NCBI GenBank assembly: GCA_016291435.1
Contig: JAEEXH010000008.1
Coordinates: 1-61,354 of the forward strand
Origin: Oscillospiraceae bacterium
GTDB lineage: Bacteria > Bacillota > Clostridia > Oscillospirales > Ruminococcaceae
Length of the DNA stretch: 61,354 bases
Direction of reading: 5' to 3'
Made by a program: the position numbers and the translations under genes. The notes under the pieces were generated by a model. It was not told the DNA's origin. It was given only the letters and a program-made list of their open reading frames with translations, and made no database searches. Shown piece after piece: positions 11,362 to 56,337 of the stretch. Position 1 is the first letter of the stretch; every line of letters starts with the position of its first letter.

Positions 11362-11400
11362 GTGCGGATCTTTGATTTTAACAGAAAGGAGAGTGCGGCT

Positions 11401-17400: not shown

Positions 17401-19854
17401 CACTGGAAGTGCTCCTGGACGGATCTCCCGTATTCAGACGGCGAGAACATCTATTACTACTATGTGATCGAGCGAAGTGTCCCGGATGACTACACAGTCT
17501 CTTATCAGAGAACGGCAACGGCTGACACACAGACCACACATATCATCAACAGCCTCCCGACAAGGCAGACCGTGCAGAAGCTGTGGTATGCAGACGGCGA
17601 GGAAATGCGAATGGATGATGCGACGCTTTCCGCACTGCCGGATGCGATTACAGTGAATGTTTATCAGAAGCTGAAAACGGAAACGGTCGGCGGAGAAGAC
17701 GGTGAGGAACCCGTGACGGTCACAACACCGACGGATATTTCCATGCCGGGCGAATACGCGGATCCCGCATCGCAGTTCTCAGGTGTTCTGATCAAAACAG
17801 TTCAGCTTCTGAAGTCTGAGGGCTATCAGATCACATTTGACGATCTTCCCGAGAAGAACGCAGACGGCATAGAGTATGTATATTTCTTCAAGGAAGAGGG
17901 CACGCATGTACTTGACAGCAGCGGCGAATTCTACACATTGTCGGAAAGCGCATATCAGTATATCGACAGCCTGACCTATGAGCATAACGGCCTGACGGCT
18001 TCGGAGATCGGAACAGTTACGATCAGAAACTCGATCAAGACTACGGATCTCGGCATCGTCAAGGTCTGGGATGACGAAAAGGATCATTCAGGCGATTCGA
18101 TCACTGTCCGGATCCATCGCGAGACAGTCGCCGATTCGGAGGCAGCGATGGCAAATCCGCTGACGCTGGAGCTGAGTGAAGCAGCCGGCAGCACAGTCTA
18201 TGTGCCAATCGGAAAGCAGGAATACACAATCACGGCGAACAAGCCTGTCAAGGTAAATGTGAGCGGTGACTGCCTGGACGATCCGATTGCGCAGAACGGG
18301 CAGAAGGTGTGGAAATTCCCCCTGAAAGGCAGCGCACAGGAAGGCGACGAGGCAACGCTGACATTCACGGACAACAATGAGACGGTCACAGTGCATCTGA
18401 AAATCGTGAATGATCCGATGCTGACGCTTTCTGCAGCGGGCACGGCAATGACGGCAGATCCCGCTGATCCGACACTGACGCCGGAGTGGTCAATGCAGTA
18501 TACACCGCCGGGCGGTTCGGTGCAGACGGTATCTGCAAACGATCCGAATGTCAGCTTTACAAGCAGCAATCCGAATGCGGCGACTGTGGACGAAAACGGC
18601 GTTCTGACAGTTGTGAACGGCGGCAAAACGACGATCACGGCTTCTTACAGCGACGGAGGGGAAACAGCCACATCGGAAGGCGTTGAGCTGACGATCAGTC
18701 TCCCGGATTTCACAGTGAGCAACGCTGAGGTCACAATCGGCGGAGACCCGGTGAAGATCACCGTGACACCGTCCTACGGCACATTTACATATGAATCGGC
18801 TGACACGGGCATCGCAGAGGTCGATGAAAACGGTAATGTGACGGGCGTCGGGGCAGGCAGTACGACTGTCACCGTGACGCGCACAGACGGCAGCGGCAAT
18901 CCCGCCGGATCGAGGACGGCGAATGTTCAGGTCGGAAATCCGAATGTTCTGGAACTGACGGATTTCGAGTCTGATAAGTGGTATGACATTTCTAGTTTCT
19001 TCTATGCAAATGAAACCGGCTCCAGAATTCCAAAACAAATCACGGTGGATTTTGACGGAGGCAGCGGAAATGCACAGGTTGTGCTGAACGGAACATTTAC
19101 TCGCACTAACTGGAACGTCAACAGCGATACTGATTTCCAGTATACCAGCATCAGCGGTAATCCTGTGACATTCGATGTTGAACAATGGAATACATACACT
19201 AAAATGGAGAACGCCAAGATCAAGTTCAATAATTATGGCGGCGCTTATCCGACTACACTGACTTTTATCTATGATGATACCTCATCTGTAACAAATGCAT
19301 TCAACGCCCCCGCCTCCCGCAGCCTGATGTCCCGCTTCACCTCCAGAACATTCCGCCTCAGCGCGGCAATGGACTACACGGCGCTTCCGCTCTCAGCGGG
19401 CACCGGGGAGGATACAGCGAAATCAGGCGGCACAGCAGTCAGTGCAGACTTCAACACGGAGGACTGCATGGAGGTCACAATCACATCTGCGGACGGCTGG
19501 CAGCAGCTTGTCAGCGGACTGCCGGTCTATAAAGCAGCCGCAGACGGTACACTCTATACCTACTACTACTGGGCAGAGGAGATTGAGATCAACGGGCAGC
19601 CGGTCGCCGGATATACGGTCAGCTACAGCTTCACCGACGGCGACACCGCAACAAGTTACAGCATCAACGCCGCGAATCCGGGCGAGGATCCGCATGTGAC
19701 GATCCGCAATACGCCAAAGGAATCGCCGACCGTTGAACTCCCGGAATCCGGCGGCACGGGCACACGCCCGGCTTATGAGATCGGCGGCATCCTGCTGCTG
19801 GTATCTGCAATCGGATATCTCACATACAAGCGCCGGAGGTGGTGCCGTGAATGA
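11401..19854 (+). CDS. Giant LPXTG-type adhesin, probable pilus tip protein
   Basis: A 2817-residue surface protein. A TTG start at 11401 is preferred because AAAGGAG (11385-11391) is 9 bases upstream; a GTG at 11362 overlaps the previous stop without a site. A long signal peptide (to about residue 50) is followed by repeated adhesin-type beta modules (WSITIRNPG, VRWTVTVTHKSGD, DRELYWSVNLTK). From about residue 840 come several Cna-B-type domains beginning KNWNDG, KLWVDQ, KIWKDG, KLWYAD and KVWDDE. Two of these look split by inserted Big-like and other beta domains (see findings). It ends with LPESGG, a hydrophobic helix and a basic tail, a sortase signal. The length and position before the major pilin suit a tip adhesin. 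Confidence 0.9.
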   Translation: MKNGNNRILQMLRENRLRCRVIALMTALSLLTMIAVPYLRVLPGAALTNGNLNDGVPYMVDEALTSAPPGAADLTGRIKSLSVKVGDNPAQTGTAGGSITVDGGNGNSAGLTIAMTYEFPNQEALAEVLASGYSYYQMDQSIQPNNGYYGDQMRVIDAAWNTTKAAGYYSISGDGLIVIHYTEDYLAYLANSKGMVGTLTFKGNVARNQDEGGDRTFRFGTTDVTVEFEDAKPSVTKSGAPDGSGADRAINWSITIRNPGKYADLSDYVLTDILDGDTINWNTANPTFNPPDAVTVGSDGMSLNFKQYDSLEARPETIVINYRQTSGVEVGGEYQNTASLQKGAEEPITDFDIVSIENALEIEKSGVPDYELKDSKEGKVRWTVTVTHKSGDSLRNVAVAERDAVFNTAFADLQVIDRTTGNVISPDKYTVSADGKTLTFADDSTLPSSADIVYTAQETEYDPNGAAGSSQGLGNHVEASRDDITDTAETDGYVSYQHALGFEKTLNGPNQELGTLEWQFTLRSNDNYGSGNPNSKLSVNGYTITDPIFENMTEAEINEKIGFNIYNYSNQTQSKKGDQYTTGAGKVTLTKTSADTIKISFDPSAYPDTVINMIKLYYAMDIRDNLSEADWNRYQNGETVRISNTATAKDRDGHQGKEGTDGKDIHLRVEASKNYIGANDPNNYSFGSEDTDDRELYWSVNLTKDAGFTSTDRYEDQLKSSNPAAGHYITPAQRAGFSLIGASASAEEKTPLPADSYTITFVDASGAPVGADENAAGFVITFTEGIDALTPPYHYIQLSYHSTAETSKVPVGENASFSNEYDFGNQPNSTPGMTYTRDNPADVKPLTLTLTKNWNDGNNAFGNRPSTITVKVMRAKAGADGSLPAEPEWELVETQVLGADSTYASSHYTLGTNYPQWEYDEDADTLSQYYYKVEEVLADSGYELTDVSDPQKAALSKEPSAALNMSMTNKSTMSFVKQAIDADGAVTDQLSASAVPIETVSIDGTPTKCFMFQWKVILNKDHKNLETYTDTLPDGAVYVGHDNSLPAAYHMRAYWSPNYYVDIAQQAAVNPGWKLVDAASSGSTVTFDVYDDIKWITYCTAVPISALEDALDEDGKLVNTLTRGDKSSSASVEVSGSAPEDTTDHLTKAFNKGVAGGYLNYTVDVNPTGKKLSNDGTIDITDILAYAGGQRSMYDQNPIPLEDLDIMLNSIKVYPLVDGEADTSNPLEPSEFSYTIGYNVSHEPKNLSVTDLSDSTYPSQWIITDWTPGEVLTVTLDQRDPNENGNIYLKTITAESNGNFTDWNHGTSVQFPSFTNGQATASLTIPDDCTGIAVLDYHKWYNQNEPTLAQGVAAAYTQAEDSPAVLEISVPDQQPLRIEYNYIVTGWEEGNILKFSNTASFYEDNGEGNWNTSDNEMSTDSSATAETLRYPTIYKTDVGNYAINDLQAEFLVAKYTDGQWVYANNITTIAGEQIPYRKLEFPEAPYTGFTEAPGSETYPENGESRFAVLRLDKTDHGNHEDIHYFDLEEGVLYKFVEISSPSEYRQPDWTKGYADNQEFVFYYNYAGFSGTLPAEAADKVRTILKYGTINVPNSQTITLKAEKSFSGSGELPESSTVQFELYWSTSRNGSNQKRVTSETLSVAETFVPTRTINYSNGNPVNTVSWEGLPSGYKGSPIYYFVRELSYTENGVTYFYDAASGKYLDAGGTEGRFRPVYTGNGTGTDRAVIEVNNSEGIQIRKLWVDQEGNPVTPAKEADSAGDMEVGFIVYGIKADGTKVRLLLDTEKLTSAMNYEYTLPQENIQGSDGAVYALSDFSNFEVEENLTDEQEASMLGRFLPPKTTRKISNGTGVLEIINTDISAPVTDAAAQKIWKDGNRDHSEDVLLVELVQSTNPRLTSAELQSYAEGGAVGGIYAGNKMKSTADTKLILKGGSGTVTFGSGITAVTGANDAVSVSFEGSTLTYSGTDAGSAELSVTLESGETETLTVTAIENQQELSADNHWKCSWTDLPYSDGENIYYYYVIERSVPDDYTVSYQRTATADTQTTHIINSLPTRQTVQKLWYADGEEMRMDDATLSALPDAITVNVYQKLKTETVGGEDGEEPVTVTTPTDISMPGEYADPASQFSGVLIKTVQLLKSEGYQITFDDLPEKNADGIEYVYFFKEEGTHVLDSSGEFYTLSESAYQYIDSLTYEHNGLTASEIGTVTIRNSIKTTDLGIVKVWDDEKDHSGDSITVRIHRETVADSEAAMANPLTLELSEAAGSTVYVPIGKQEYTITANKPVKVNVSGDCLDDPIAQNGQKVWKFPLKGSAQEGDEATLTFTDNNETVTVHLKIVNDPMLTLSAAGTAMTADPADPTLTPEWSMQYTPPGGSVQTVSANDPNVSFTSSNPNAATVDENGVLTVVNGGKTTITASYSDGGETATSEGVELTISLPDFTVSNAEVTIGGDPVKITVTPSYGTFTYESADTGIAEVDENGNVTGVGAGSTTVTVTRTDGSGNPAGSRTANVQVGNPNVLELTDFESDKWYDISSFFYANETGSRIPKQITVDFDGGSGNAQVVLNGTFTRTNWNVNSDTDFQYTSISGNPVTFDVEQWNTYTKMENAKIKFNNYGGAYPTTLTFIYDDTSSVTNAFNAPASRSLMSRFTSRTFRLSAAMDYTALPLSAGTGEDTAKSGGTAVSADFNTEDCMEVTITSADGWQQLVSGLPVYKAAADGTLYTYYYWAEEIEINGQPVAGYTVSYSFTDGDTATSYSINAANPGEDPHVTIRNTPKESPTVELPESGGTGTRPAYEIGGILLLVSAIGYLTYKRRRWCRE

Positions 19855-19899
19855 CAAACCTGACGGCATCCGAATCAACACAGCACATAAATCCGAACA

Positions 19900-19930
19900 A
19901 TCCGGGGGCGGGCAGCCCCTGCTCCCGGAT
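19900..19930 (+). promoter_or_regulatory. Hairpin upstream of the major pilin
   Basis: ATCCGGG (19900-19906) pairs with CCCGGAT (19924-19930), with further G/C pairing inside. There is no T-run, so it is more likely an mRNA processing or stability element than a terminator. Confidence 0.5.
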
Positions 19931-19954
19931 ACAACATCAAAAAGGAGTATGATT

Positions 19955-21643
19955 ATGAAGAAGACGAACAAGATCGCGGCAATGGCCGCAGCAGCACTGC
20001 TTGCAGGCGCAGTCGCAATTCCGTCCGTTATGATGGCAGTCAGCGCCACCAATGTGAGCATCAGCGAGGACTCTGCGGAGGGCAAGAGAGATCAGGCAAC
20101 GCATACCTATAATGCCTATCCGATCTTCACCGGCACCCAGACGGATGCAGGTCTGATGATTACCAACTGGGGCACGGGCTTCAATTCCACCGGTCTGCTC
20201 GCGGATTCGGAATTCCAGGCGCTCTTCCCGGCAGCGATCTCTGCGGGAAGCACTGCTGCGCAGGTCGCACAGGCGATCGAAGCACTGAACATCGAGAACA
20301 ACAGCAAAAATGCGGACAAACTCGCAGCAATCCTGAGCAAGTATGTCGGCGGAACACCTGAAGAGCTTCCAAAGGATCTGACCGCCGGCTACTGGATCGT
20401 GCTGGATTCCTATGAGAACGCCGATGCGCAGGATGCTGTTTCCAAGCACATTCTGAGAGTGACCGGCGGCACAGAGCCGATCACGATTACACCGAAGAAG
20501 TCGTATCCGTCTGTTGAGAAGAAGGTTCTGGAGAACGAGAAGATCGTCGATGGCAAGCCGATCAATGATCCCACGACCACGGAGAAGTGGAATGATGTGG
20601 CTGACTACTGCATCGGCGATGCGGTTCCGTTCAAGCTCTACGGTACGCTGCCTTCGACCTACGCGGACTATGATTGTTATTACTACAAGTTTACCGATAC
20701 ACTCGCTGCCTCGTTCGATGCACCGACTGCGGATGCTGTCACGGTCTGCGTGAACGGCACACCGATTCAGAATGCAGCGGGCGAGACGAACATGAGAGTC
20801 TCGGTTGACGGTCAGGTCATCACCGTTTCCTTCGAGGATATCAAGAAATTCGCCACGAACGCATCTGATATCATTACCGTGGAATACGATGCGGTGCTGA
20901 ACGGGAATGCTGTGATCGGTCTTCCGGGTCAGGAGAATAAGGTTGATCTGACCTACTCGAACAATCCGAATGTGGATTATAACCCGAATACAAGCGACAC
21001 CACGGATGATACGGACACGAGCGATACCACCCCGGAGGACAAGGTCATTGTTTTCACCTATCAGCAGAATATCAAGAAGGTTGACAGCGCAACCGGCAAT
21101 CCGCTGAGCGCAGTCTTCACGCTCTCCCGCGGAAGCGGCACGGATATTCAGTATGCTATTGTCGACAGCGGCAAGGTTACCGGCTGGACTGCCAATAAAG
21201 CGGACGCCTCTGAGCTGACGACCAATGGTACGACCGGTCTCTGCACCGTGGCAGGTCTCGATGACGGCGCATATACTATCACTGAAAAGACAGCACCGAC
21301 CGGCGGCTATAACGCGATTAGCAGTCCCATGACACTCACAATTAATGCAACAACGCAGAACGGTCAGACATGGGATGGGTCTGCTGCTTCCGCACTGACT
21401 GAAATTTCACTGACTGTTGGCGGTGATACTCATATTTCCGATGATAGTGCAAGTCTTTCTGCTGCTGATACCGCAACAAAGGGTATTGTTCAGGCCAAGA
21501 TTACGAATGATAAGGGCATCAGCCTTCCGACAACCGGCGGCATCGGCACCAAGCTGTTCATCATCGGCGGCGGCACGGCTGCGGCACTGGCAGGCATCTA
21601 CCTGATCTCCAAGAAGCGCAGCAAGGAAGAGGATGCAGAGTGA
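19955..21643 (+). CDS. Major pilin, isopeptide-forming backbone subunit
   Basis: A 562-residue pilin. The start at 19955 has AAAGGAG 7 bases upstream; the ATG at 19949 is only one base away. A signal peptide ends near VSATN. Residues about 170-200 carry the pilin-type region (ITPKKSYPSVEKKV), which should hold the Lys used for cross-linking. A D2-type isopeptide domain (about 200-360), an Asp/Thr-rich linker and a Cna-B/prealbumin domain with the E-box YTITEKTAPTGGY follow. It ends LPTTGG, hydrophobic helix, KKRSKEE. The neighbouring class C sortase would polymerise it. Hairpins lie on both sides of the gene. Confidence 0.92.
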   Translation: MKKTNKIAAMAAAALLAGAVAIPSVMMAVSATNVSISEDSAEGKRDQATHTYNAYPIFTGTQTDAGLMITNWGTGFNSTGLLADSEFQALFPAAISAGSTAAQVAQAIEALNIENNSKNADKLAAILSKYVGGTPEELPKDLTAGYWIVLDSYENADAQDAVSKHILRVTGGTEPITITPKKSYPSVEKKVLENEKIVDGKPINDPTTTEKWNDVADYCIGDAVPFKLYGTLPSTYADYDCYYYKFTDTLAASFDAPTADAVTVCVNGTPIQNAAGETNMRVSVDGQVITVSFEDIKKFATNASDIITVEYDAVLNGNAVIGLPGQENKVDLTYSNNPNVDYNPNTSDTTDDTDTSDTTPEDKVIVFTYQQNIKKVDSATGNPLSAVFTLSRGSGTDIQYAIVDSGKVTGWTANKADASELTTNGTTGLCTVAGLDDGAYTITEKTAPTGGYNAISSPMTLTINATTQNGQTWDGSAASALTEISLTVGGDTHISDDSASLSAADTATKGIVQAKITNDKGISLPTTGGIGTKLFIIGGGTAAALAGIYLISKKRSKEEDAE

Positions 21644-21690
21644 TCCCGCACACTGCACAGACGACAGCGCATAAAATCTGAATCACCCCG

Positions 21691-21719
21691 CGCCTCCGGG
21701 GAGGGCTTCCCCGGAGGCG
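21691..21719 (+). promoter_or_regulatory. Intercistronic hairpin after the major pilin
   Basis: CGCCTCCGGGGA pairs perfectly with TCCCCGGAGGCG over a 5-base loop; no T-run follows. It may partly attenuate transcription or protect the pilin message, giving more major pilin than sortase. Confidence 0.6.
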
Positions 21720-21747
21720 GTCAGGGAGAAATCCACAAGGAGCAGCC

Positions 21748-22629
21748 ATGCAGAAGAAACGTGATGCAGTCATACCCGCGATTTTCAGCGTGATTTTTCT
21801 TGTGGGTCTCTCCGTGATGCTGTATCCGACATTTTCCAACTGGTGGAACCGGCGCCATCAGGCGAGGGAAGTCACCGCCTACAAGGAAGATGTCGCAAAA
21901 ATGGATAACACCGAAACGCTGCGGGTTTTCGAGGAAGCCCGCGATTATAACGAACAGCTTGCAGCTCTCAGCGCGCCGCTCACAGAGTTTGCGCAGATCC
22001 CGGGCTATGAAAATATCCTGGATATATCCGGCACAGGCATCATGGGCTATGTGTCGATCCCGTGCATCAAGGTCGAACTGCCGATCTATCACGGCACCAG
22101 CGAGGGCGTTTTGCAGATCGCCTCGGGACATATCCAGGGCACAAGCCTGCCGGTCGGCGGCGCATCGACACATGCCGTGATCTCCGGGCACCGCGGACTG
22201 CCCTCCGCAAAGCTGTTCACAGACCTCGATCAGATCGTGGAGGGCGACACCTTCACGATAAATGTGCTGAATGAGGTGCTGACCTATGAGGTCGGGAAAA
22301 TCCTGATCATCCGGCCGACGGAGACCGACAAGCTGGCAATCGTCCCCGGTGCGGATGAGGTCACACTCATGACCTGCACGCCTTACGGCGTCAATTCGCA
22401 CCGCCTGCTGATCCGCGGGCACCGCGTCAAAAGCGTTTACGACAAAAAGGTGAAGGTCGGCGCGGATGCATTGCAGGTCGATTCCATGACTGTCATTCCG
22501 ATCGTGTTTGTGCCGCTGCTCGTGCTCCTGCTCCTCTGGTGGAGCATAACGGAGCGCCGCACGCAGCATATCCGCATTGATCGGTACATCGTTCGCAAAT
22601 TACCGCGAAGAAAGGAGGATGGGAAATGA
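21748..22629 (+). CDS. Class C sortase (pilus polymerase)
   Basis: A 293-residue membrane transpeptidase. An N-terminal helix (about 9-30) and a C-terminal helix (about 248-268) flank the sortase fold, the arrangement of class C enzymes. Catalytic residues: His in ISGHRGLPSA, Cys in TLMTCTPYG, Arg in NSHRLLIRG. It should link LPTTGG of one major pilin to a Lys of the next. AAGGAG is 5 bases before the start. The stop overlaps the minor pilin start (ATGA). Confidence 0.92.
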   Translation: MQKKRDAVIPAIFSVIFLVGLSVMLYPTFSNWWNRRHQAREVTAYKEDVAKMDNTETLRVFEEARDYNEQLAALSAPLTEFAQIPGYENILDISGTGIMGYVSIPCIKVELPIYHGTSEGVLQIASGHIQGTSLPVGGASTHAVISGHRGLPSAKLFTDLDQIVEGDTFTINVLNEVLTYEVGKILIIRPTETDKLAIVPGADEVTLMTCTPYGVNSHRLLIRGHRVKSVYDKKVKVGADALQVDSMTVIPIVFVPLLVLLLLWWSITERRTQHIRIDRYIVRKLPRRKEDGK

Positions 22630-23675
22630 TAAAGCATATGAAGCGGCTTTGTTCGGCGCTCTGCGGGCTTGTGCTCGTGTTCGGGTGCATGGCGGGGCTG
22701 CTGATGACGGTGTCTGCTGCCGATGACGGCACACTGACGCTCTGGTGCGTCAAGGGCGACGATAAGGTCGCCGGGATGCAGTGGCACATTTACAGAGTCG
22801 GTCACCGCTCCGACAGCGACTATGTGTTTGACGGAGATTTTGCCGATTACCGCCTGACGCTCGGCGATGAGACAAAGTCCATGCTTGAATGGGATGCCGA
22901 TACAGTTGCAGATGCCGGTGAGACGCTGAAGGCGGTTACCGTCGCAGATGAGATTCCGGCGCTTGCAGACGGCACAACAGACAGCGCGGGCAGAGTGACC
23001 TTCAGCGGGCTTCAGCCGGGGCTGTATCTCGTCTGGGGCGAAATCCTGCAAACCGGCGATACGATCTATATCCCGAGCGCGGTCTTCTTTGAGATGCGCG
23101 GAGAGGATGACGCAGTGCTGAACGCATATCCGAAGATCATCCTTCGTTCGATGGACAACAGCTCCGCAGATTATTCCGTCCGCAAGGTCTGGCTGAATGA
23201 TGAAAGCCAGCCGCAGAACCGCGCCGCGTCAGTCACCGTTGCGCGTTACCGCGACAATCAGTTTTACGATGAGATCACGCTCAGTGAGGAGAATGCGTGG
23301 ACCTATGAATGGGAGGATACCGTCGATCATGTGTGGTTTGTCCTCGAGAAGGTCATCCCCGCGGGATACACGGTCGCCTGCCGTCAGCGGCAGACGCAGT
23401 ATCTGATCATCAATACCTACACGGGGACGGATGATCAGACGGAGACAACCACCACGGCGACAACGCTCAGCACGGCGGAGACGCAGGATACCGCAGCCTC
23501 ATCCAGTGAAAGCAGCACCGTGACAACAACGGCTGCCGTGACAACAACGACTGCGGTCACAGACAAAATCCCGCAGACAGGTCAGCTCTGGTGGCCGGTG
23601 CCGTGTCTTGCCGGCTCCGGTATGCTCCTTCTGGGACTTGGCTTCATCCTGCGCCGGAAGGAAGAGGAAGAATGA
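22626..23675 (+). CDS. Minor pilin with Cna-B domain and IPQTG anchor
   Basis: A 349-residue surface protein. A signal peptide (to about 35, ending SAAD) is followed by an N-terminal beta domain and a Cna-B domain starting SVRKVWLND. A Thr/Ser-rich stalk (about 265-315) leads to IPQTGQ, a hydrophobic helix and RRKEEEE, a variant sorting signal. It is probably the basal or anchor pilin. AAAGGAGG is 7 bases ahead of the start. It overlaps the upstream sortase by ATGA and the next sortase by four bases, so four genes are tightly coupled. Confidence 0.85.
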   Translation: MIKHMKRLCSALCGLVLVFGCMAGLLMTVSAADDGTLTLWCVKGDDKVAGMQWHIYRVGHRSDSDYVFDGDFADYRLTLGDETKSMLEWDADTVADAGETLKAVTVADEIPALADGTTDSAGRVTFSGLQPGLYLVWGEILQTGDTIYIPSAVFFEMRGEDDAVLNAYPKIILRSMDNSSADYSVRKVWLNDESQPQNRAASVTVARYRDNQFYDEITLSEENAWTYEWEDTVDHVWFVLEKVIPAGYTVACRQRQTQYLIINTYTGTDDQTETTTTATTLSTAETQDTAASSSESSTVTTTAAVTTTTAVTDKIPQTGQLWWPVPCLAGSGMLLLGLGFILRRKEEEE

Positions 23676-24313
23676 GAAAAGCAGCGAGTATTTGCTGTAT
23701 TGCACTGGGAACAGCGCTGCTCCTTGCGGCGTTGTTCCTTGTTTTGCATAATACGGCAGAGGACAGAAAGAGCGGCGAGACGGCGGAGCGCCTGCTCGAT
23801 GCGCTCAGGCAGGAGATCCCGGAATACACCGGGCCCTCTGAGACCGCGCTGACGGGCGAAAGCGGCGATCTCTTCCCGGAATTTGAAACGGAGACGGAAG
23901 CTGCTGCGCCGGAGACAATCACATTGGACGGCAATGTTTATCTCGGCTATCTGTCCATCCCGGAGCTCGGGCTGGAGCTCCCTGTGCTGCGCGACTGGAG
24001 CTATCCGAATCTGAAGCTCGCACCCTGCCGCTATCAGGGCAGTGCCGCGGAAGATGATCTCATCCTCTGCGCACACAATTACGACAGCCATTTCGGGCGG
24101 CTCAGGGAGCTGCATACCGATTCGGAGATTATCTTCACCGATGTGACAGGTGCGCCGCACCGATACAGCGTGCTGAACACGGAGGAACTCCCCGGGACCG
24201 CGGTCGAACAGATGCAGTTCGGCGATGCAGCGGAATGGGACCTGACACTGTTTACCTGTACGCGCAGCGGGCAGAGCCGCGTGACGGTGAGAGCGGCAAG
24301 AACGGAGGAATAA
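23672..24313 (+). CDS. Second sortase, single-pass
   Basis: A 213-residue sortase with one N-terminal helix and no C-terminal helix. Catalytic His in LCAHNYDSHFG, Cys in LTLFTCTRSGQ, Arg in SRVTVRA. The single helix and small size suit a class B/D-type housekeeping or base-attachment enzyme rather than a polymerase. Between signal and fold is an acidic linker (FPEFETETEA). It could attach the finished pilus, via IPQTG or LPESG, to the wall (inference). The start overlaps the preceding stop by ATGA. Confidence 0.85.
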   Translation: MRKAASICCIALGTALLLAALFLVLHNTAEDRKSGETAERLLDALRQEIPEYTGPSETALTGESGDLFPEFETETEAAAPETITLDGNVYLGYLSIPELGLELPVLRDWSYPNLKLAPCRYQGSAAEDDLILCAHNYDSHFGRLRELHTDSEIIFTDVTGAPHRYSVLNTEELPGTAVEQMQFGDAAEWDLTLFTCTRSGQSRVTVRAARTEE

Positions 24314-49714: not shown

Positions 49715-50848
49715 TCATGTGCTGAGCTGCTTCTCACGCGCAATGCATGCTTCGCGGAGAAAATCAAGATATGCGTCCACCTGCTCTGCGGTGATGCTCG
49801 TGCTGCGCTGACCGTATTTCTCGGGCAAAAGCTGACAGAGATAATACTGTCCGAGCAAATACGCATGATCGGCAAGCCCGTGCAGGCAGCCGGACTGAAT
49901 GCACGCGAAGTCTGTATCCGTAATGCTTCCGATCTGCTCCGGGGACGCGGCAAAGAGAGATGCCTTTGCGCTCATGTCAGTCGGCTGCATCAGGCTTGTG
50001 ACAGCGGCATCGAGCTTGAGGGAAGGCGTTGCCGCGGCGCGCGCCTCTGACGGATTCAGCGTCTTGTCGAAATACTGTGACATGTCGATTTCGATTGTGT
50101 CAATGTCATTGTAAATCGCAATCTGTGCGGCGTTCAGCATCTGCGGATAGCTGCCTGTTGTTTCCGGCAGTGTCAGATAATACTGATACATCCACGCCAG
50201 CATATAATCGGCATAGGTCAGATGTCCGTCCATGTCAATATCGCCGGGCTGATATGTCTGCGGCTCTGTTTCAGCGGCAGTTTGCTGCTCCGTCTGCACG
50301 GTTGTCTGCACCGCTGCGGCAGTCTCTGCGGTTGTCTGCGCTGCCGTGACGGCGGGCATTGCAGTCGTTTCTGCGGCGCGCACTGTCTGCACGGCGGCAG
50401 CTTCTGTGCCTGTCACTTCTGAGGTTGGGGTATTGTCCTCCAGCGTGCCGTCTTCGCAAAACGGCAGGATATAGGGCGTTGTACCGTGCATGATGCCCTC
50501 AAAAAGTGCCGCATCATCCGTTGCCTCCGTACTGTCTGCCGTTGTCTCCCGCTCGGTGCTGTCCGCCGTCAAGGTCGTTGTAAGCTGTGTGCCTGCGGCG
50601 GTTTCATGCACTTCCTCGATCGGATAGCCGGTTGTCTGCACATTGATGCCGTCATGTGCCTGCAAATAGACGCCGAGCGCGAGCAGTCCGCCGCATGCCG
50701 CCGCTGCCGCTGTCAGCCCTACCGCAATGCGCGTGACCGTTCTGCGGATGCGCCTCCGCCTGTTTGTGCGTGCCGCGATCTGCTGTGCCTCGCTGCGGAA
50801 ACGCGGATTGACCGCGGAAAATGCCTGCATCAGGTCCTGCGTTTTCAT
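49715..50848 (-). CDS. Probable anti-sigma factor 2 with dockerin-like module
   Basis: A 377-residue single-pass protein. The start at 50848 overlaps the sigma stop by ATGA and is 7 bases after GGAGG. The cytoplasmic part (1-40) is short and basic (RTNRRRRIRR). One helix (about 41-62) leads to a Thr/Ala/Glu-rich linker (about 70-195). Then comes a dockerin-like loop, GDIDMDGHLTYADYMLAW, with ligands at 1, 3, 5, 7 and 12. The second loop (about 245-260, YNDIDTIEIDMSQYF) is degenerate. A helical C-terminus of about 110 residues follows. If it is an anti-sigma factor, its outer part could contact a cohesin or the polysaccharide-bound complex (inference). Confidence 0.7.
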   Translation of the reverse strand: MKTQDLMQAFSAVNPRFRSEAQQIAARTNRRRRIRRTVTRIAVGLTAAAAACGGLLALGVYLQAHDGINVQTTGYPIEEVHETAAGTQLTTTLTADSTERETTADSTEATDDAALFEGIMHGTTPYILPFCEDGTLEDNTPTSEVTGTEAAAVQTVRAAETTAMPAVTAAQTTAETAAAVQTTVQTEQQTAAETEPQTYQPGDIDMDGHLTYADYMLAWMYQYYLTLPETTGSYPQMLNAAQIAIYNDIDTIEIDMSQYFDKTLNPSEARAAATPSLKLDAAVTSLMQPTDMSAKASLFAASPEQIGSITDTDFACIQSGCLHGLADHAYLLGQYYLCQLLPEKYGQRSTSITAEQVDAYLDFLREACIAREKQLST

Positions 50849-51402
50849 AGCCATTCCTCCTTCTCTAAAAATTGCCGCAGCCGTTTTCGTACACGGTGCA
50901 GCATGCTTTTGACCTTGTTCTCCGAAAAGCCGAACTGCGCCGCAATGGTGCGCACCTGCCAGAGATCGGCATACCGCCGCACGGTGACAGCGCGCATCTC
51001 GGGCGGGAGCTCCGCGAGAAAGCGGTTCAGCGCTTCGGAAAGCTGCCGCGTCTCGATGAGCTTCTCCACATCCTGCGTCCCGGGCACGCATTCTGCAAGC
51101 TCCTCCAGCACGGCGGGCTTCTCATTGCCGCCGCGCTTTGCCGCATGCTCCCTGCGGGCGAGCGAGACAGCCCTGCGCTTTGTCAGCGCGGAGAGAAAGC
51201 CAAAGAGATTCTCCGGCTTTTCCGGCGGGACCGCATTCCAGACAGCCAGCAGCACATCGTTCATGACTTCCTCTGCATCCTCTGCGCTGTCCACATACTG
51301 CATTGCGATCTTCCGGCAGCCTTTTTCATACTGCTTCCGCAGTGCCTGAAGCCCGCGCTCGTCACGCGCTTCGAGCAGCCGCAGGATCTCGGCGTCCTCC
51401 AT
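50845..51402 (-). CDS. ECF-type RNA polymerase sigma factor 2
   Basis: A 185-residue sigma-70 family protein. Region 2: YEKGCRKIAMQYVDSAEDAEEVMNDVLLAVWNAVPP. Region 4: LPPEMRAVTVRRYADLWQVRTIAAQFGFSENKVKSMLHRVRKRLR. GGGAGGG is 8 bases ahead of the start. It is divergent from the pectate lyase gene and coupled to the dockerin-bearing membrane protein. A -10 box TATAAT (51438-51433) is seen but the -35 box is poor. Confidence 0.92.
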   Translation of the reverse strand: MEDAEILRLLEARDERGLQALRKQYEKGCRKIAMQYVDSAEDAEEVMNDVLLAVWNAVPPEKPENLFGFLSALTKRRAVSLARREHAAKRGGNEKPAVLEELAECVPGTQDVEKLIETRQLSEALNRFLAELPPEMRAVTVRRYADLWQVRTIAAQFGFSENKVKSMLHRVRKRLRQFLEKEEWL

Positions 51403-51525
51403 CTGCGATCCCTCCCTTCATCCTCTCTGTCTATTATATCGCAAAATGATGCGCTTTGGTTGCATAAAGTCCGAAAAATCCATATCGCATGAGACAATTA
51501 TGCAGGAAAAGCGGAATATCTGTCA

Positions 51526-51554
51526 TTGCATCCGGGACAAAATGTCAGTATAAT
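51526..51554 (+). promoter_or_regulatory. Sigma-A-like promoter of the pectate lyase
   Basis: TTGCAT (51526-51531), 17 bases, TATAAT (51549-51554), about 80 bases ahead of the start. The long leader could also host other control. Confidence 0.65.
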
Positions 51555-51637
51555 GATAAGTACAGTGGCAGTCGGGTACCGCCGGCGCCGTCATCTGAGA
51601 AAAAACGATCACACACATACACTTAGGGGGAAAACTT

Positions 51638-54094
51638 ATGCGTACAAAGAAACATCTGATCGCTGCGGTCTGTGCAGCAGCCGTGCTCGTGAGCGCCGTG
51701 CCCGCCGGGATGTTCCCGGTCCTTGCGGCGGATACCGTTGAAATTACCGCCGCAGACGGCTGGTTTGAATCCGCATATGTCCAGTGGACACCGGTCTCCG
51801 GCGCGAGCGGCTACAATGTCTACGCCGACGGCAAGCAGATCGACAGCATGCTGATCCGTCAGTACAACGGCTTCTACCGTGCAGATGCCGTGGGGCTGAA
51901 GGCAGGCTCGCATACGTTGCAGATCGTTCCGCTGATGAGCGGCAAGGAGGACACGGCAAAGGCGGCATCCAAATCTGTCACGGTCTCCGCACATGACCGC
52001 ACGGGCTTTGCGTGGACAAAGGATTCTGCTTATTCTAATTCGACCGCATCCGGCGCCTATAACGAAGACGGTACGCTTCGCAGCGGCGCAGTCGTGCTCT
52101 ATGTCACCGACAAGACCAAGAACAGCGTTTCGATGAATGTTGTCACCGATTCCAAGGGCGGCACGACCTCCGCGACCGGCGTGCAGGGCATTCTTTCGGC
52201 ATATCAGAAGGGCTATGAGACCCGTCCGCTCGATCTCCGCTGCATCGGCAATATCACCGATCCTTCCACGCTGGAGGGCGGCGATCTGCTCGTGAAGGGC
52301 AACGGCTCCTCCAAGCGCCTCTCCTGCGGCATTACGATCGAGGGCATCGGCACCGATACCGTCTTCAACGGCTTCGGTCTCCGCATTGCAAATGCGTCCA
52401 ATGTGGAGGTCCGCAACATCGGCTTCATGAACTGCAACAGCAGCGAGGGCGATGATGTCGGTCTCCAGCAGAACAATGACCATGTCTGGGTGCATCACTG
52501 CGATCTCTTCTACGGCGACGCAGGCTCCGATGCCGACCAGGCAAAGGGCGACGGCGCGCTTGATACCAAGACCTCGACCTATATCACCCATTCCTACAAC
52601 CACTTCTGGGACAACGGCAAGTGCAATTTGCAGGGCATGAAGTCGGAATCGACCGACAACTACATCACCTATCATCACAACTGGTACGATCACTCCGATT
52701 CCCGTCACCCGCGTATCCGCACCTGCTCTGTCCACATCTACAACAACTACTTCGACGGCAATGCGAAGTACGGCGTCGGCGTGACGATGGGCGCTTCCGC
52801 ATTCGTCGATGACAACTACTTCCGCGCCTGCCCGAAGCCGATGATGAGCTCCAACCAGGGCACCGATGCCAAGGGCGAGGGTACCTTCTCCGGCGAAAAC
52901 GGCGGCATCATCAAGGCATACAACAATGTCTTTGCTGAGAATCCCTCCGGCTTCAGCTACCTCACCTATCAGTCCGCAGGCGCAGATTCCGATGCCTACG
53001 AGGTTACCAGTGCGTCGGCGACTGTCCCGAACAGCGTGAAGACCGTTGCGGGCGGCACAACCTACAACAATTTCGACACTGGCTCCAAGATGTATTCCTA
53101 CAAGGCGGATGCTCCCGCGGATGTCCCCGCGAAGGTCACTGCAAGTGCAGGCAGAATGCAGGGCGGCGATTTCAAGTGGCAGTTCAACAATTCCGTTGAC
53201 GATGCAAGCTATGCCGTCAACACTGCGCTGAAATCCGCACTGACGAGCTACAAGTCCGCGATCGTGGCAATCGGCAGCGGCTCCTATGTCACCCCGACCG
53301 ATCCGCCGGTCGTAACACAGGCTTCTTCGACCTCCAGCTCCACCTCCGGCACCACCACCGCAACGACCGCATCCTCCGGCGTGAGCACCGGCGATGTGAC
53401 TGCTTCCGACTACGTTCACAACTTTACCGAAAACGGCACCGCAAGCAATTTCTTCTCGATCTCCGGCAATCTCTCGACGGGCAAGGGCACGATGACCTAT
53501 CAGGGCATGAACCTGACCCAGTGCCTCAAGATGGAGAGCACGACCAGCATCGGCTTCACGATGCCCGCAGCAGGCTCCCTCACGCTCGTCATCAAGGACG
53601 GCACCACCGTCAAGGTGGACGGCACCGCATATGATATCCCCGCAGACGGCGTGCTGACCGTGCAGCTTTCCGCAGGTGCACACACTGTCGCAAAGGGCAG
53701 CGGCTCCTCGAATCTCTACTACATGGCAGTCGCGATGAGCGGTCAGCCGGCGCAGTCTTCTTCGAGCGAGACCACTACGACTACCACGACCACTACGACG
53801 ACCGTCACAGAGACAGAGCAGAGCAGCGAGAGCACAACCACGAGCACCACAGTCTCGACGGAATCCTCCTCTGAGCAGACAAAGATTGTCCGCCACGGCG
53901 ATCTGGACTGCAACGGCGCAGTTGAGCTTGCCGACGCAGTGCTGCTTGCAAAGGCATCGAGCGGCATCGACATCGGTCTGACCGCAGAGGGCAGAGTGAA
54001 TGCAGAGTGCGACGGCAAAGAGGGCATTGATATGAATGACCTGACCGTCCTGCTGAAGTATCTCGCGGGTCTGATTGACGAGATCAAATTCTGA
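51638..54094 (+). CDS. Secreted pectate lyase (PL1) with dockerin
   Basis: An 818-residue enzyme that cleaves polygalacturonate by beta-elimination outside the cell. Signal peptide (1-31, ending VLAAD). A fibronectin-III-like domain follows (about 35-115). The PL1 beta-helix spans about 120-455, with DGALDTKTSTYITHSYNHFW, YHHNWYDHSDS and the catalytic Arg in SRHPRIR (about 356-359). After a Ser/Thr linker comes a beta-sandwich (about 585-705) that looks like a carbohydrate-binding module. A second Thr/Ser linker leads to a dockerin (about 753-818) with loops DLDCNGAVELAD and ECDGKEGIDMND. GGGGG is 8 bases ahead of the start. It lies between two sigma/anti-sigma operons. Confidence 0.92.
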   Translation: MRTKKHLIAAVCAAAVLVSAVPAGMFPVLAADTVEITAADGWFESAYVQWTPVSGASGYNVYADGKQIDSMLIRQYNGFYRADAVGLKAGSHTLQIVPLMSGKEDTAKAASKSVTVSAHDRTGFAWTKDSAYSNSTASGAYNEDGTLRSGAVVLYVTDKTKNSVSMNVVTDSKGGTTSATGVQGILSAYQKGYETRPLDLRCIGNITDPSTLEGGDLLVKGNGSSKRLSCGITIEGIGTDTVFNGFGLRIANASNVEVRNIGFMNCNSSEGDDVGLQQNNDHVWVHHCDLFYGDAGSDADQAKGDGALDTKTSTYITHSYNHFWDNGKCNLQGMKSESTDNYITYHHNWYDHSDSRHPRIRTCSVHIYNNYFDGNAKYGVGVTMGASAFVDDNYFRACPKPMMSSNQGTDAKGEGTFSGENGGIIKAYNNVFAENPSGFSYLTYQSAGADSDAYEVTSASATVPNSVKTVAGGTTYNNFDTGSKMYSYKADAPADVPAKVTASAGRMQGGDFKWQFNNSVDDASYAVNTALKSALTSYKSAIVAIGSGSYVTPTDPPVVTQASSTSSSTSGTTTATTASSGVSTGDVTASDYVHNFTENGTASNFFSISGNLSTGKGTMTYQGMNLTQCLKMESTTSIGFTMPAAGSLTLVIKDGTTVKVDGTAYDIPADGVLTVQLSAGAHTVAKGSGSSNLYYMAVAMSGQPAQSSSSETTTTTTTTTTTVTETEQSSESTTTSTTVSTESSSEQTKIVRHGDLDCNGAVELADAVLLAKASSGIDIGLTAEGRVNAECDGKEGIDMNDLTVLLKYLAGLIDEIKF

Positions 54095-54108
54095 TCATGT
54101 GAGCCAAA

Positions 54109-54147
54109 CATCCGGCAGCTTGCAAAAGCTCGCCGGATGTTTTTTTG
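54109..54147 (+). terminator. Terminator of the pectate lyase
   Basis: CATCCGGC pairs with GCCGGATG, extended by AGCT/AGCT inside, followed by seven T. Confidence 0.85.
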
Positions 54148-54153
54148 TATGCG

Positions 54154-54182
54154 TTACCTTTTCGCGGAAAATCTGTTATAAT
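54154..54182 (+). promoter_or_regulatory. Promoter of sigma factor 3
   Basis: TTACCT (54154-54159), 17 bases, TATAAT (54177-54182). The -35 box is weak. Confidence 0.55.
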
Positions 54183-54235
54183 AGATAGGACAGTATGCAG
54201 ACTGTGCGATTTTATTTGCAAAGGAGGGCGACATA

Positions 54236-54793
54236 ATGGATGATGCCGCGATCATCGCGCTGTATCAGCGCCGCGATGAGCAGGCGATCCGCGAGACGGA
54301 AGCCGCTTACGGCGCACTCTGCAATCAGATCGCCTATCATATAACAGAGAGCCGCGAGGATGCGGAGGAATGCGTCAGCGAGGGGCTTCTGCGCCTCTGG
54401 AACGCAATCCCGCCCGCATGCCCCGAGAATTTGGGCGGCTATTTTGTCACAGCCGTGCGGAATATCGCGCTGAACCGCCGTGCGGAGGCACATGCCGGGC
54501 GGCGCGGCGGCGGACAGACGCCGCTCTCCTATGAGGAGCTGTCGCCCTATATTGCGGCGAAGGACGGCACCGAGCAAGCCGTTGACCGCAATGCGCTCAC
54601 GGACGCGCTGCGGCGCTTCCTCGCAGGGCTTTCGGCAGATGCACGGGCGTTCTTCATCTCGCGCTACTGGCTCGCGCTGCCGGTATCGGAGATTGCAAAA
54701 CAGTGCGGATGCAGCGAGGGCAGAGTGAAGATGTCGCTGCTGCGCACCCGGAAGAAGCTGCGCACATCTCTGGAAAAGGAGGGATTTCTGTGA
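54236..54793 (+). CDS. ECF-type RNA polymerase sigma factor 3
   Basis: A 185-residue sigma-70 family protein. Region 2: GALCNQIAYHITESREDAEECVSEGLLRLWNAIPP. Region 4: LSADARAFFISRYWLALPVSEIAKQCGCSEGRVKMSLLRTRKKLR. It is the same length as sigma factor 2 and shares the LWNAIPP / VWNAVPP wording, so the two are probably close paralogues. AAGGAGGG precedes the ATG. Overlaps its partner by GTGA. Confidence 0.92.
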   Translation: MDDAAIIALYQRRDEQAIRETEAAYGALCNQIAYHITESREDAEECVSEGLLRLWNAIPPACPENLGGYFVTAVRNIALNRRAEAHAGRRGGGQTPLSYEELSPYIAAKDGTEQAVDRNALTDALRRFLAGLSADARAFFISRYWLALPVSEIAKQCGCSEGRVKMSLLRTRKKLRTSLEKEGFL

Positions 54794-56337
54794 ATCAGCT
54801 TGAATTTTACGGTGCGATGGATGCTGTATGTGCAGAGTACGCCGGAGAGACGGTTGCACGTCTGCAAAGACCCGCCGACCCGCATAAAAGTCTCATTTTC
54901 CGCGTGACAACGCTTGCGGCAGCGGCGGCTGTGCTGGTGATCCTCATCGGTGCGGGCGTGATCATGTACCGCGGCAGACAAAGCAGTCTGCGGACGCCGG
55001 GCAGCAGGGGAGAATATGCCGCTGCGGAGGCGGTGAAGATGCAGGCACAGCTCACGGGTGAGCCCCACGATAACGCCTTCCGTTTCCCGCAGACGGCAGA
55101 ATTCCAATCCCTGACGCTGGACGGCAGCGTATCTGTATCGCAGGCGCTCGGTACCGCTGCCTGCACGGAGCAGGGGATTTACAGCCTATGTGCCCCCGGC
55201 ACAGACAGCGAGCATTACACGCAGCAGGGAATCTGCTACACCGATTTTGCGACGGGCGAAACGCTCTATCTCTGCGCGAATCCCGCCTGTCTGCATGACG
55301 GCTCGGCGTTTTGTGCGGCAACCACGCCCGCGTACCGCATTGCGGCGCTCACCTATACAGACGGCATGCTCTACGCTGCCGCGACCAAAGCGACCGGCGA
55401 TGCGGAAAAGCCGTATCTCGCGGTGCTGCTTGCGGTGCAGCCGGACGGCTCCGGGACGCAGGAGCTCTGTGTGCTGAGCGACAGGGGCGAGATCGGCTCC
55501 TGCGAGATGATCGCACACCGCGGCGCGCTCTGGGTCTCCGTGACGGTCGAATGGACGACCGAGGTCGAGGATCTGCGCGGCACGCAGTATAATAACGGTG
55601 CATGCTATGCGCTCTGGCATTACGAGATTGTGCCGCGCCGTCTCACATGGATCACGGGCAGCGCACCGGAAGGGGATGCCTACAACCGGAATGCGGTGGC
55701 AGATTTGCAGGGCACGGGCGATTATGTGTATTTCACGCAGCAATGGGGCGGAGACGGCTATCTGCTGGAGCAGGGGCTTTACCGTGTGAATGCACAGACG
55801 GGCGTGATCGAGCAGCTTCCGCAGAATCCCGACCAGATGTTCGGCTACGGCGTTTCGGGCGATCTGCTCTGCTATGTGCAGAAGGCGGCGGAGGCAAGCG
55901 AGGAGACGGCGGGTATCTGGCGCATGCACATCTGTGACCTTGCGGCGGGGACGGAGACAGAATGCGATGTGCCCCGCGCCGTGCAGCGGGTCTTCACGGA
56001 CGGCAGCAGGATTTATGTGGATACAGGACTCCCGTCGAAGGGACTTCTCTGCTATGACCGCAGCGGCGTTTTGCAGCAGAGCATCCCGTATACGGTGCCG
56101 GAGACGGACGGGGAGTCGGATGATGTGTACTTTGCACTGCATGACGGGAAGCTGCAAATGATCCGCGTGCAGCATCAGTACGGGATCAATGACGATGCAG
56201 TCTGGGAATATGATACCGTGACGCTCAGCGCACCGCCGCGGGACAGCGCCGCCGCAGATGAGACCGCGTTCGAGCCATACTGCACGGAGACTGCGCTGAT
56301 GCATGTGCATGTGTTCACACCGCAGGAGAAACAATAA
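54790..56337 (+). CDS. Probable anti-sigma factor 3 with beta-propeller-like domain
   Basis: A 515-residue single-pass protein. The GTG start overlaps the sigma stop. The cytoplasmic part (1-38) is short; one helix (about 39-60) follows. The outer region (about 110-500) is made of repeated strand groups such as GICYTDFATGETLYLCANPACLHDG, GMLYAAATK, DYVYFTQQW and SRIYVDTG, which suggest a beta-propeller. The C-x3-C-x-H-D cluster (ANPACLHDGSAFC) recurs in Clostridial propeller lipoproteins and may bind metal. Ligand unknown; the role is inferred from gene order. Confidence 0.72.
   Translation: MNQLEFYGAMDAVCAEYAGETVARLQRPADPHKSLIFRVTTLAAAAAVLVILIGAGVIMYRGRQSSLRTPGSRGEYAAAEAVKMQAQLTGEPHDNAFRFPQTAEFQSLTLDGSVSVSQALGTAACTEQGIYSLCAPGTDSEHYTQQGICYTDFATGETLYLCANPACLHDGSAFCAATTPAYRIAALTYTDGMLYAAATKATGDAEKPYLAVLLAVQPDGSGTQELCVLSDRGEIGSCEMIAHRGALWVSVTVEWTTEVEDLRGTQYNNGACYALWHYEIVPRRLTWITGSAPEGDAYNRNAVADLQGTGDYVYFTQQWGGDGYLLEQGLYRVNAQTGVIEQLPQNPDQMFGYGVSGDLLCYVQKAAEASEETAGIWRMHICDLAAGTETECDVPRAVQRVFTDGSRIYVDTGLPSKGLLCYDRSGVLQQSIPYTVPETDGESDDVYFALHDGKLQMIRVQHQYGINDDAVWEYDTVTLSAPPRDSAAADETAFEPYCTETALMHVHVFTPQEKQ

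Follow-up and report, generated by a model that had tools for sequence, protein, structure and literature searches.

The sigma 2 operon described here probably (we put it at about 0.6) belongs to a family of cellulosome-wired regulators that extends through the genus. Each member pairs an ECF sigma factor with a single-pass membrane anti-sigma factor, and the family would play the part that SigI/RsgI systems have in clostridia. The operon lies in a window of 61,354 nucleotides (the whole stretch of DNA that was analysed) from an Oscillospiraceae bacterium, a fibre degrader of the gut. Dockerin-like tips are one sensor type within this ECF sensor family. In part of it, as sequence comparison shows, the Thr-rich stalk carries an outer module borrowed from the cellulosomal parts of the cell itself: a dockerin or dockerin-like module, an LRR-like domain, or a domain that the sensor shares with the next secreted dockerin protein.

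Gene layout around the pectate lyase

Gene order and strands are those given by a first-pass annotation: anti-sigma 2 and sigma 2 on the minus strand, followed by the lyase, sigma 3 and anti-sigma 3 on the plus strand. Sigma 2 (185 aa; 50845..51402, minus strand) and sigma 3 (54236..54793, plus strand) are both ECF-type sigma factors. They score 67.6 and 82.7 bits, respectively, with TIGR02937 (cut-off 42.9), their best NCBIfam matches are ECF models, and sigma 2 carries Sigma70_r2 and r4_2 above cut-off. The SigI model was absent among the best 25 of 78 NCBIfam matches of sigma 2 and the best 25 of 64 of sigma 3. The partner of sigma 3 (515 aa; 54790..56337, plus strand) has one transmembrane segment and is without a Pfam family; no dockerin was found in it.

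The gene between the two pairs (818 aa; 51638..54094, plus strand) encodes a PL1-type pectate lyase with a hydrophobic N terminus, as for secreted proteins, and the Pfam domains Pectate_lyase_4 (PF00544, 6e-27) and CBM77 (PF18283, 1.3e-33). The dockerin that the annotation had placed on this enzyme is indeed there (residues 754-810; 53897..54067, plus strand). It was not reported by the Pfam scan and was found with our own model of 22 other dockerins (17 from the same genome and 5 further), at E 1.1e-11, and it aligns with dockerins of the same genome.

Sigma 2 and the lyase diverge from an intergenic region of 235 bp (51403..51637, no strand assigned). Conservation of the locus had been proposed as a check. 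An orthologous locus does exist in a close relative (G026), where 281 aligned bases covering this region differ at 8 positions and by an insertion of 1 nt, and this relative is therefore too close for the synteny to count as independent support. Part of the Ruminococcus sigma family has upstream promoters of the form TGTAA...GTC, which resemble known ECF promoters. In the own genome this ECF-like pattern, which was picked after inspecting the same upstream sequences, occurs in 11 of 36 sigma upstream regions against 0.24 expected. None of the regions upstream of sigma 2, sigma 3 or the lyase contains it; a search of the sigma 2/lyase intergenic region for TGTRA-N-GTC was likewise negative, and no shared promoter linking the two genes was found. 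When motifs were sought in the sigma upstream regions by EM, the procedure collapsed onto T tracts.

Anti-sigma 2 and its dockerin-like tip

The candidate anti-sigma 2 or outer sensor (377 aa; 49715..50848, minus strand) was recognised by its family architecture and by an ATG that overlaps the stop codon of sigma 2 by 4 nt (ATGA). We have placed its start at 50848 and not at 51091, since the longest open frame, beginning at 51091, starts too far upstream. All its parts lie on the minus strand. An N terminus of about 40 aa (50729..50848), Arg-rich before the membrane, is predicted to be cytoplasmic from its charge and from an N-terminal pattern that, in a leave-one-out analysis, was recognised in 40 of 49 non-redundant partners; it is a candidate sigma-binding segment. 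A single transmembrane segment (approximately 50672..50728, from a hydropathy window) separates a net charge of +8 from one of -1 after it. Then come a Thr/Ala-rich stalk read directly from the sequence (50255..50671), a dockerin-like first repeat, GDIDMDGHLTYADYMLAWMYQYY, with a complete calcium-loop pattern (50177..50245), and a C-terminal region (49718..50176) for which profile alignment suggests a possible degenerate second repeat with a long insertion plus about 100 aa, and which has no Pfam match.

Anti-sigma 2 thus shows both marks of an anti-sigma factor that we looked for, a single membrane span with the N terminus inside (by charge) and an overlap with the sigma gene. The 4-nt overlap, the single span and the positive-inside charge are shared with general ECF sigma/membrane anti-sigma systems. 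HxxxCxxC is the zinc-binding anti-sigma motif; it is visible by eye in other partners of the own genome and absent from anti-sigma 2, which differs from ECF systems in general also in its outer cellulosomal module. We considered anti-sigma 2 as an RsgI and rejected it because the RsgI N-terminal domain was not found. The Pfam scan at E 1 gave only DUF3040, below cut-off, and the NCBIfam scan at E 0.1 one weak, unrelated match.

The calcium-loop module claimed for the outer side of the protein is confirmed, with the loop GDIDMDGHLTYAD. Among the 313 window ORFs one contains the strict loop pattern, and none of 200 shuffles of the whole set does. With a model built on 17 modules, all from other genomes, the module is found at E 1.7e-7, in substance over 23 residues only, which correspond to the first repeat. 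A dockerin has two calcium repeats, and only the first is recognisable here; PF00404 (Type I dockerin) gave no match for anti-sigma 2 at E 1 nor for its module at E 0.1. For these reasons the tip is dockerin-like, and calling it a dockerin would overstate the case. Structure prediction of the window module alone reached a mean pLDDT of 38.6, too low for a fold search. It is not similar to the adjacent lyase (E 0.23), and the matches of the sensor in its own genome are limited to itself and a paralogue (C61), so that no secreted copy of it was found.

How much dockerin function such a tip retains can be weighed against the type-III dockerins of Ruminococcus flavefaciens. The window module resembles those of groups 2 and 4 in its canonical first calcium repeat. 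As described in the cited sections, the first repeat alone was identified in group 2 (PMC2930009), which recognises the ScaE and ScaH cohesins (PMC5301203), and some dockerins of group 4 are interrupted by internal insertions (PMC2930009, PMC5301203). Gly-Arg are given there as the group-4 cohesin-recognition residues (PMC5301203), and where ScaH has Gly-Arg the window module has Tyr-Ala. Against solved structures, secreted module-only relatives came closest to the ScaH dockerin (E 1.9e-9), while the sensor modules matched weakly (best 0.003) and their profile did not reproduce the ScaH match (16% probability); we have therefore not assigned ScaE as partner. Most dockerins of LRR proteins in R. 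flavefaciens bound none of the cohesins tested (PMC5301203, in the part consulted). The dockerin proteins of that species are described, in the part of the source covered, with signal peptides (PMC4081043), unlike the window sensor, a sigma-linked membrane protein.

It is quite possible, if short of even odds, that the sigma/anti-sigma mechanism is the same and the tip no longer binds cohesins, being a calcium-stabilised helical relic that now binds a polysaccharide, peptide or cell-wall partner, a reading that overlaps with the one we prefer. The single recognisable repeat would fit it, as would the roughly 100 residues beyond the module, the second loop interrupted across the family by insertions of variable length, and the LRR-like and other outer domains of the wider sensor family. 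Against this, all 19 aligned modules share G3, D4, G9 and D15 of loop 1, with D6, D8 and T12 almost as constant, and the group-2 dockerins of R. flavefaciens, with one repeat identified, still recognise cohesins. The tip could also be a tether only, holding the anti-sigma at the scaffoldin while another outer part reads the substrate. Thr-rich stalks and an extra C-terminal region beyond the module in many family members, about 110 additional stalk residues in the G026 orthologue, and about 150 residues without assignment between stalk and dockerin in two members are what one would expect of such a device. We consider it quite unlikely, since outside the module no outer part of anti-sigma 2 matches a known family and no reader domain can be named.

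Recurrence in the genus and the neighbouring genes

The proposed pairing of a sigma factor with an anti-sigma-type protein that bears a dockerin-like outer module holds beyond the window, with the qualification that one repeat is recognisable here. Sensors that are linked to a sigma gene and carry a dockerin or dockerin-like module number 29 (25 through directed searches and 4 among 62 sampled pairs) and come from 15 of 30 genus genomes, and the idea of the module as a one-off was rejected on this recurrence. Two of the 29 pass PF00404 (L134:8787-10094 and L203:2179-3570, at 36.2 and 36.0 bits, cut-off 22.9); the window sensor does not. The 29 belong to an expanded sigma subfamily, A7, which has 497 summed matches in 30/30 genus genomes (with a model of 12 sigmas), and cohesins are likewise present in all 30. 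In a module search through 197 genomes of the taxonomic family, no fewer than three of them from the genus itself (G000, G022 and G024), matches outside the genus appeared in four genomes, and the six such loci that were fetched held dockerin proteins or no match, with no sigma gene in the fetched flanks. Only 20 first-look candidates were scored in dockerin-rich genomes, so this search may have missed members.

The regulatory link that had been drawn from position to the lyase fared unevenly. For the sigma subfamily there is statistical support for a link with cellulosomal genes: of 53 readable next genes 18 encode a dockerin, compared with 10 of 96 genes at positions 2-3 (Fisher p 8e-4), and the share is 16 of 29 when the next gene is on the same strand and within 300 nt. 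These figures come from the 62 sampled pairs, hand-picked among the best-scoring rows, and the sample leans to dockerin-sensor loci for that reason and because 8 of the 12 A7 model sigmas come from such loci. At some loci the outer domain is moreover mirrored in the next secreted protein. Identity is 92% at one locus (268 aa) and 90% at another (276 aa), and in four of the sampled loci it is about 40% across 101-107 aa. A search with one LRR-dockerin protein at E 1e-20 hit 11 places, all at sigma/sensor pairs. Control of the lyase by sigma 2 remains a matter of position.

In the own genome the neighbourhood link to dockerin genes is weak. A dockerin gene lies directly beside the pair in 3 of 30 sigma rows (several read to an edge), and two of the three are the window's lyase. 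No dockerin gene stands beside the dockerin-tipped pair G000:C61, nor beside the pair at 7 other directed loci, in 3 of which a contig edge cuts off the upstream side. This genome also has 107 PF00404 matches, 42 sigma region-4 matches, 13 cohesin matches at E 0.01 and a scaffoldin frame with five cohesin matches. The richness in dockerins and sigma factors, the few adjacent dockerin genes and the lack of a promoter pattern connecting sigma 2 with the lyase would suit an ordinary envelope-stress ECF pair that met a dockerin-like tip and a lyase by chance. This we regard as very unlikely given the enrichment of dockerin genes directly after pairs in the genus sample, the sensor domains that are copies from the secreted gene that follows, and the 29 dockerin-type sensors.

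Relation to SigI/RsgI and proposed working

In Acetivibrio (Clostridium) thermocellum and relatives the SigI/RsgI systems are described, in the sections consulted, as multiple paralogous pairs of a sigma and a membrane anti-sigma factor, with outer sensors made of cellulase-type parts (CBMs, GH-like domains) and often with dockerin and cohesin genes adjoining (PMC3413522, PMC11557425). The Ruminococcus family is alike in its paralogous pairs, cellulosomal-type outer modules and dockerin-gene neighbours, and it differs in an ECF-type sigma, a cytoplasmic part of about 40 aa, and outer modules among which are dockerins and domains duplicated in the next secreted dockerin protein. An outer module built from cellulosomal parts, encoded beside cellulosomal genes, indicates a similar working, not membership. 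The portions of the literature searched yielded no published RsgI with a dockerin and no description of such a sensor suite in Ruminococcus.

In the cellulosome-wired ECF system that we favour, the short cytoplasmic N terminus of the anti-sigma would hold the sigma factor, and the outer module would engage or lose a partner, a cohesin for dockerin tips and a substrate or surface target for the other modules. The change of partner would inactivate the anti-sigma, probably by regulated proteolysis, and the freed sigma would transcribe its own operon and the adjacent dockerin-bearing genes; for sigma 2 the target is probably the pectate lyase, to go by its position. A more speculative extension, which we think fairly unlikely, is a titration feedback in which dockerin-tipped anti-sigmas gauge the fullness of the cellulosome because they and the secreted dockerin proteins compete for a common set of cohesins. 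Free cohesins would bind the tip and release sigma. The operon would then make dockerin proteins, one of which, at some loci, is the outer domain of the sensor in soluble form, and these would occupy the cohesins and displace the tip.

The ECF sensor family could be the missing suite of regulators, and it supplies concrete operons. A dockerin on a sensor would couple transcription to the assembly of the complex and not to the substrate alone, and it may be through their many paired sigma/sensor switches that these bacteria sense their plant-degrading machinery and adjust it.

Two sigma pairs around a dockerin-bearing lyase

The gene order and strands proposed by the first-pass annotation were borne out in the window: anti-sigma 2 (49715-50848) and sigma 2 on the minus strand, followed on the plus strand by a PL1-type lyase that carries CBM77 plus a dockerin and by sigma 3 with its partner. 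The stop of sigma 2 falls within the ATGA that opens anti-sigma 2, which has about 40 cytoplasmic residues, one transmembrane segment (TM) and a stalk rich in Thr, and contains the loop GDIDMDGHLTYAD. The outer calcium-loop module that had been assigned to this protein holds as far as the loop is concerned, its first repeat reaching E 1.7e-7 among 313 window ORFs with a model of 17 sigma-linked modules from other genomes (in substance a match to the first repeat only); Pfam makes no dockerin call. The orthologue in G026, a closely related genome (L091:1379-2845, minus strand), has ~110 additional stalk residues and no Pfam family above the cut-off. No mirrored domain was detected between anti-sigma 2 and the lyase (E 0.23).

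Elsewhere in the window, 11362-24313 encodes a 2830-aa protein with a sorting-like C-terminal end, followed by pilin-like and sortase-like ORFs, and this region, judged by its sequence alone, looks like a surface pilus operon. The protein at 376-1455 belongs to a second own-genome dockerin group (with L114, L116, L118 and L122) that has a conserved post-dockerin tail like FGNTNSxIxCTWRSxTGNPxAP.

The assembly (3.16 Mb, 155 contigs, 92.7% complete) contains 107 PF00404 matches (E 1e-3), 13 cohesin matches (E 0.01), five of them within one scaffoldin frame, and 42 sigma region-4 matches (E 0.01), 30 of which were obtained with flanks. Many of the sigmas have a C-terminal motif like LEKEGxL and a 4-nt overlap with a single-TM partner. 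Among the partners read, two combined a dockerin-like loop with a model match: anti-sigma 2 and the one on contig C61. Six ECF sigma/single-TM partner pairs stand in tandem on contig C57 (L055, ~65-80 kb), with partners of 503-546 aa that have no dockerin match.

Dockerin-type sensors across the genus

Searching 30 genus genomes with a seven-module profile (E 1e-6) gave 41 rows in 17 genomes. The 30 loci read from them contained two main kinds of protein: TM sensors linked to a sigma gene, and small secreted proteins of the same module. An upstream sigma gene accompanied 21 sensors, a count that leaves out the sensor of L094, whose locus begins at a contig edge; larger fetches added four (L134, L141, L203 and L204), for a directed total of 25. 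For a less selected view we made the sigma profile A7, in which 8 of 12 rows come from dockerin-sensor loci. It matched 497 times, in 30/30 genomes (2-35 per genome), and 59 regions hand-picked from ~150 listed rows, passing over contigs read before, provided 62 pairs and two sigmas without a partner. Four of these 62 pairs had dockerin-type sensors, which in the directed and sampled sets together are spread over 15/30 genomes. Two sensors exceed the Pfam dockerin cut-off (36.2 and 36.0 bits).

By hhalign, the modules of the sensors and those of the secreted proteins are homologous (98.8%, E 5e-17), and each group matches ten own-genome dockerins as a set (93.8% and 95.1%, respectively). Matches to PF00404 at E 0.1 were weak in both, with 9/19 sensor modules (best 9.7e-4) and 8/10 secreted ones (best 1.5e-4). 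The closest solved relative of the secreted modules is the ScaH dockerin (E 1.9e-9), and the sensor modules matched solved structures weakly (best 0.003).

The module-only secreted proteins (L097:59-490, L097:555-983, L098, L099, L108, L109, L110, L111, L112 and L034; 126-254 aa) consist of little more than a signal peptide and an insertion-bearing dockerin-like module. Some are in tandem, and at G010:C113 two directly follow a sigma/sensor pair; none appeared among the own-genome matches read. L100:1510-2148 (minus strand) encodes a 212-aa protein whose N terminus resembles a zinc ribbon and which has a single TM as well as a dockerin-like module; no sigma gene was found in the fetched flanks.

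Neighbouring genes and mirrored outer domains

A dockerin or module-bearing protein adjoins the pair at 14 of the 25 directed loci, which are non-independent, several being orthologues. It is absent at eight, three of which reach a contig edge on the upstream side, and at three the neighbour or contig is cut (G026:C155, G029:C34 and G028:C395). One positive locus, the first copy at G015:C10, has its neighbour split over two frames. In 7/14 the next gene is a same-strand LRR-type dockerin gene (by Pfam or similarity search). One such protein used as query (E 1e-20) found 11 distinct places in seven genomes, ten of them genes downstream of a pair and the eleventh the sensor of a pair. At G014:C13 a 2074-aa subtilase-LRR-dockerin protein (L135:11540-17761, minus strand) lies directly upstream of a dockerin-tipped pair.

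In the sample, the next gene encoded a dockerin in 18/53 readable cases versus 10/96 at genes two and three (p 8e-4) and ~17/182 in the remaining background (p 4e-5). Of ten such dockerin-bearing next proteins scanned with Pfam, nine were above the dockerin cut-off and one was at 22.1 versus 22.9; GH26, LRR_5 and Big_2 were each found once. The tie is weak in the own genome, where a dockerin gene directly adjoins a pair in 3/30 sigma rows, two of which are the window lyase.

Some sensors mirror their neighbours. At G019:C169 the outer domain and the LRR-dockerin protein of the following gene share 92% identity across 268 aa, with LRR_5 slightly under the Pfam cut-off in each, and a second pair there shows 35.5% over 166 aa to its own next dockerin protein. 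The mirror at G003:C152 reaches 90% over 276 aa, and the G010:C113 sensor shares 35-39% over 85-95 aa with the two secreted module-only proteins. Four sampled sensors show ~40% identity (101-107 aa) with the dockerin protein that follows, and a fifth shows 27% (229 aa) with a following protein that has no dockerin. L262 was dropped as a sixth sample mirror, its sensor matching a neighbouring sensor. No mirror was seen between two Pfam-positive dockerin sensors and their LRR-dockerin neighbours, nor at five further directed loci.

Partner N termini, promoters and possible signalling

Net charge is higher before than after the TM in 46/56 partners (one protein entered twice, zinc-type partners included), and a leave-one-out model placed the real N terminus within the best 5 of 100 for 40/49 non-redundant partners. 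The pattern TGTRA-N16-19-GTC, selected after inspection, occurs in 11/36 own-genome sigma upstream regions (0.24 expected; at most 2 across 200 rounds of shuffling). It is present upstream of the dockerin-tipped pair on C61; sigma 2, sigma 3 and the lyase lack it.

Our literature search, among the available portions of open-licence papers, found no dockerin-bearing anti-sigma factor. Within such portions, the RsgI suite is said to be used by Acetivibrio-type producers only (PMC11557425), the A. cellulolyticus RsgI modules listed are CBMs, PA14, a peptidase or unknown (PMC3413522), and the way in which the ruminococcal arsenal is regulated is described as "yet to be understood" (PMC4081043). 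The accessible text on R. flavefaciens describes group-2 dockerins in which the first repeat is the only one identified (PMC2930009), recognition of ScaE by group-2 and group-4 dockerins, and LRR-protein dockerins of which most had no interaction with tested cohesins (PMC5301203). Because of the group-2 precedent, cohesin binding by a one-repeat module is possible. Two features of the anti-sigma 2 module, the absence of the Gly-Arg pair and a second repeat that cannot be recognised, argue against naming a specific cohesin for it.

The family, its architecture, the neighbourhood enrichment and the mirrored domains are established at the level of sequence. The partner N terminus would bind the sigma factor, and signalling would amount to loss of the anti-sigma; at dockerin tips the outer partner may be a cohesin, and in the window the lyase may be under the control of the pair.
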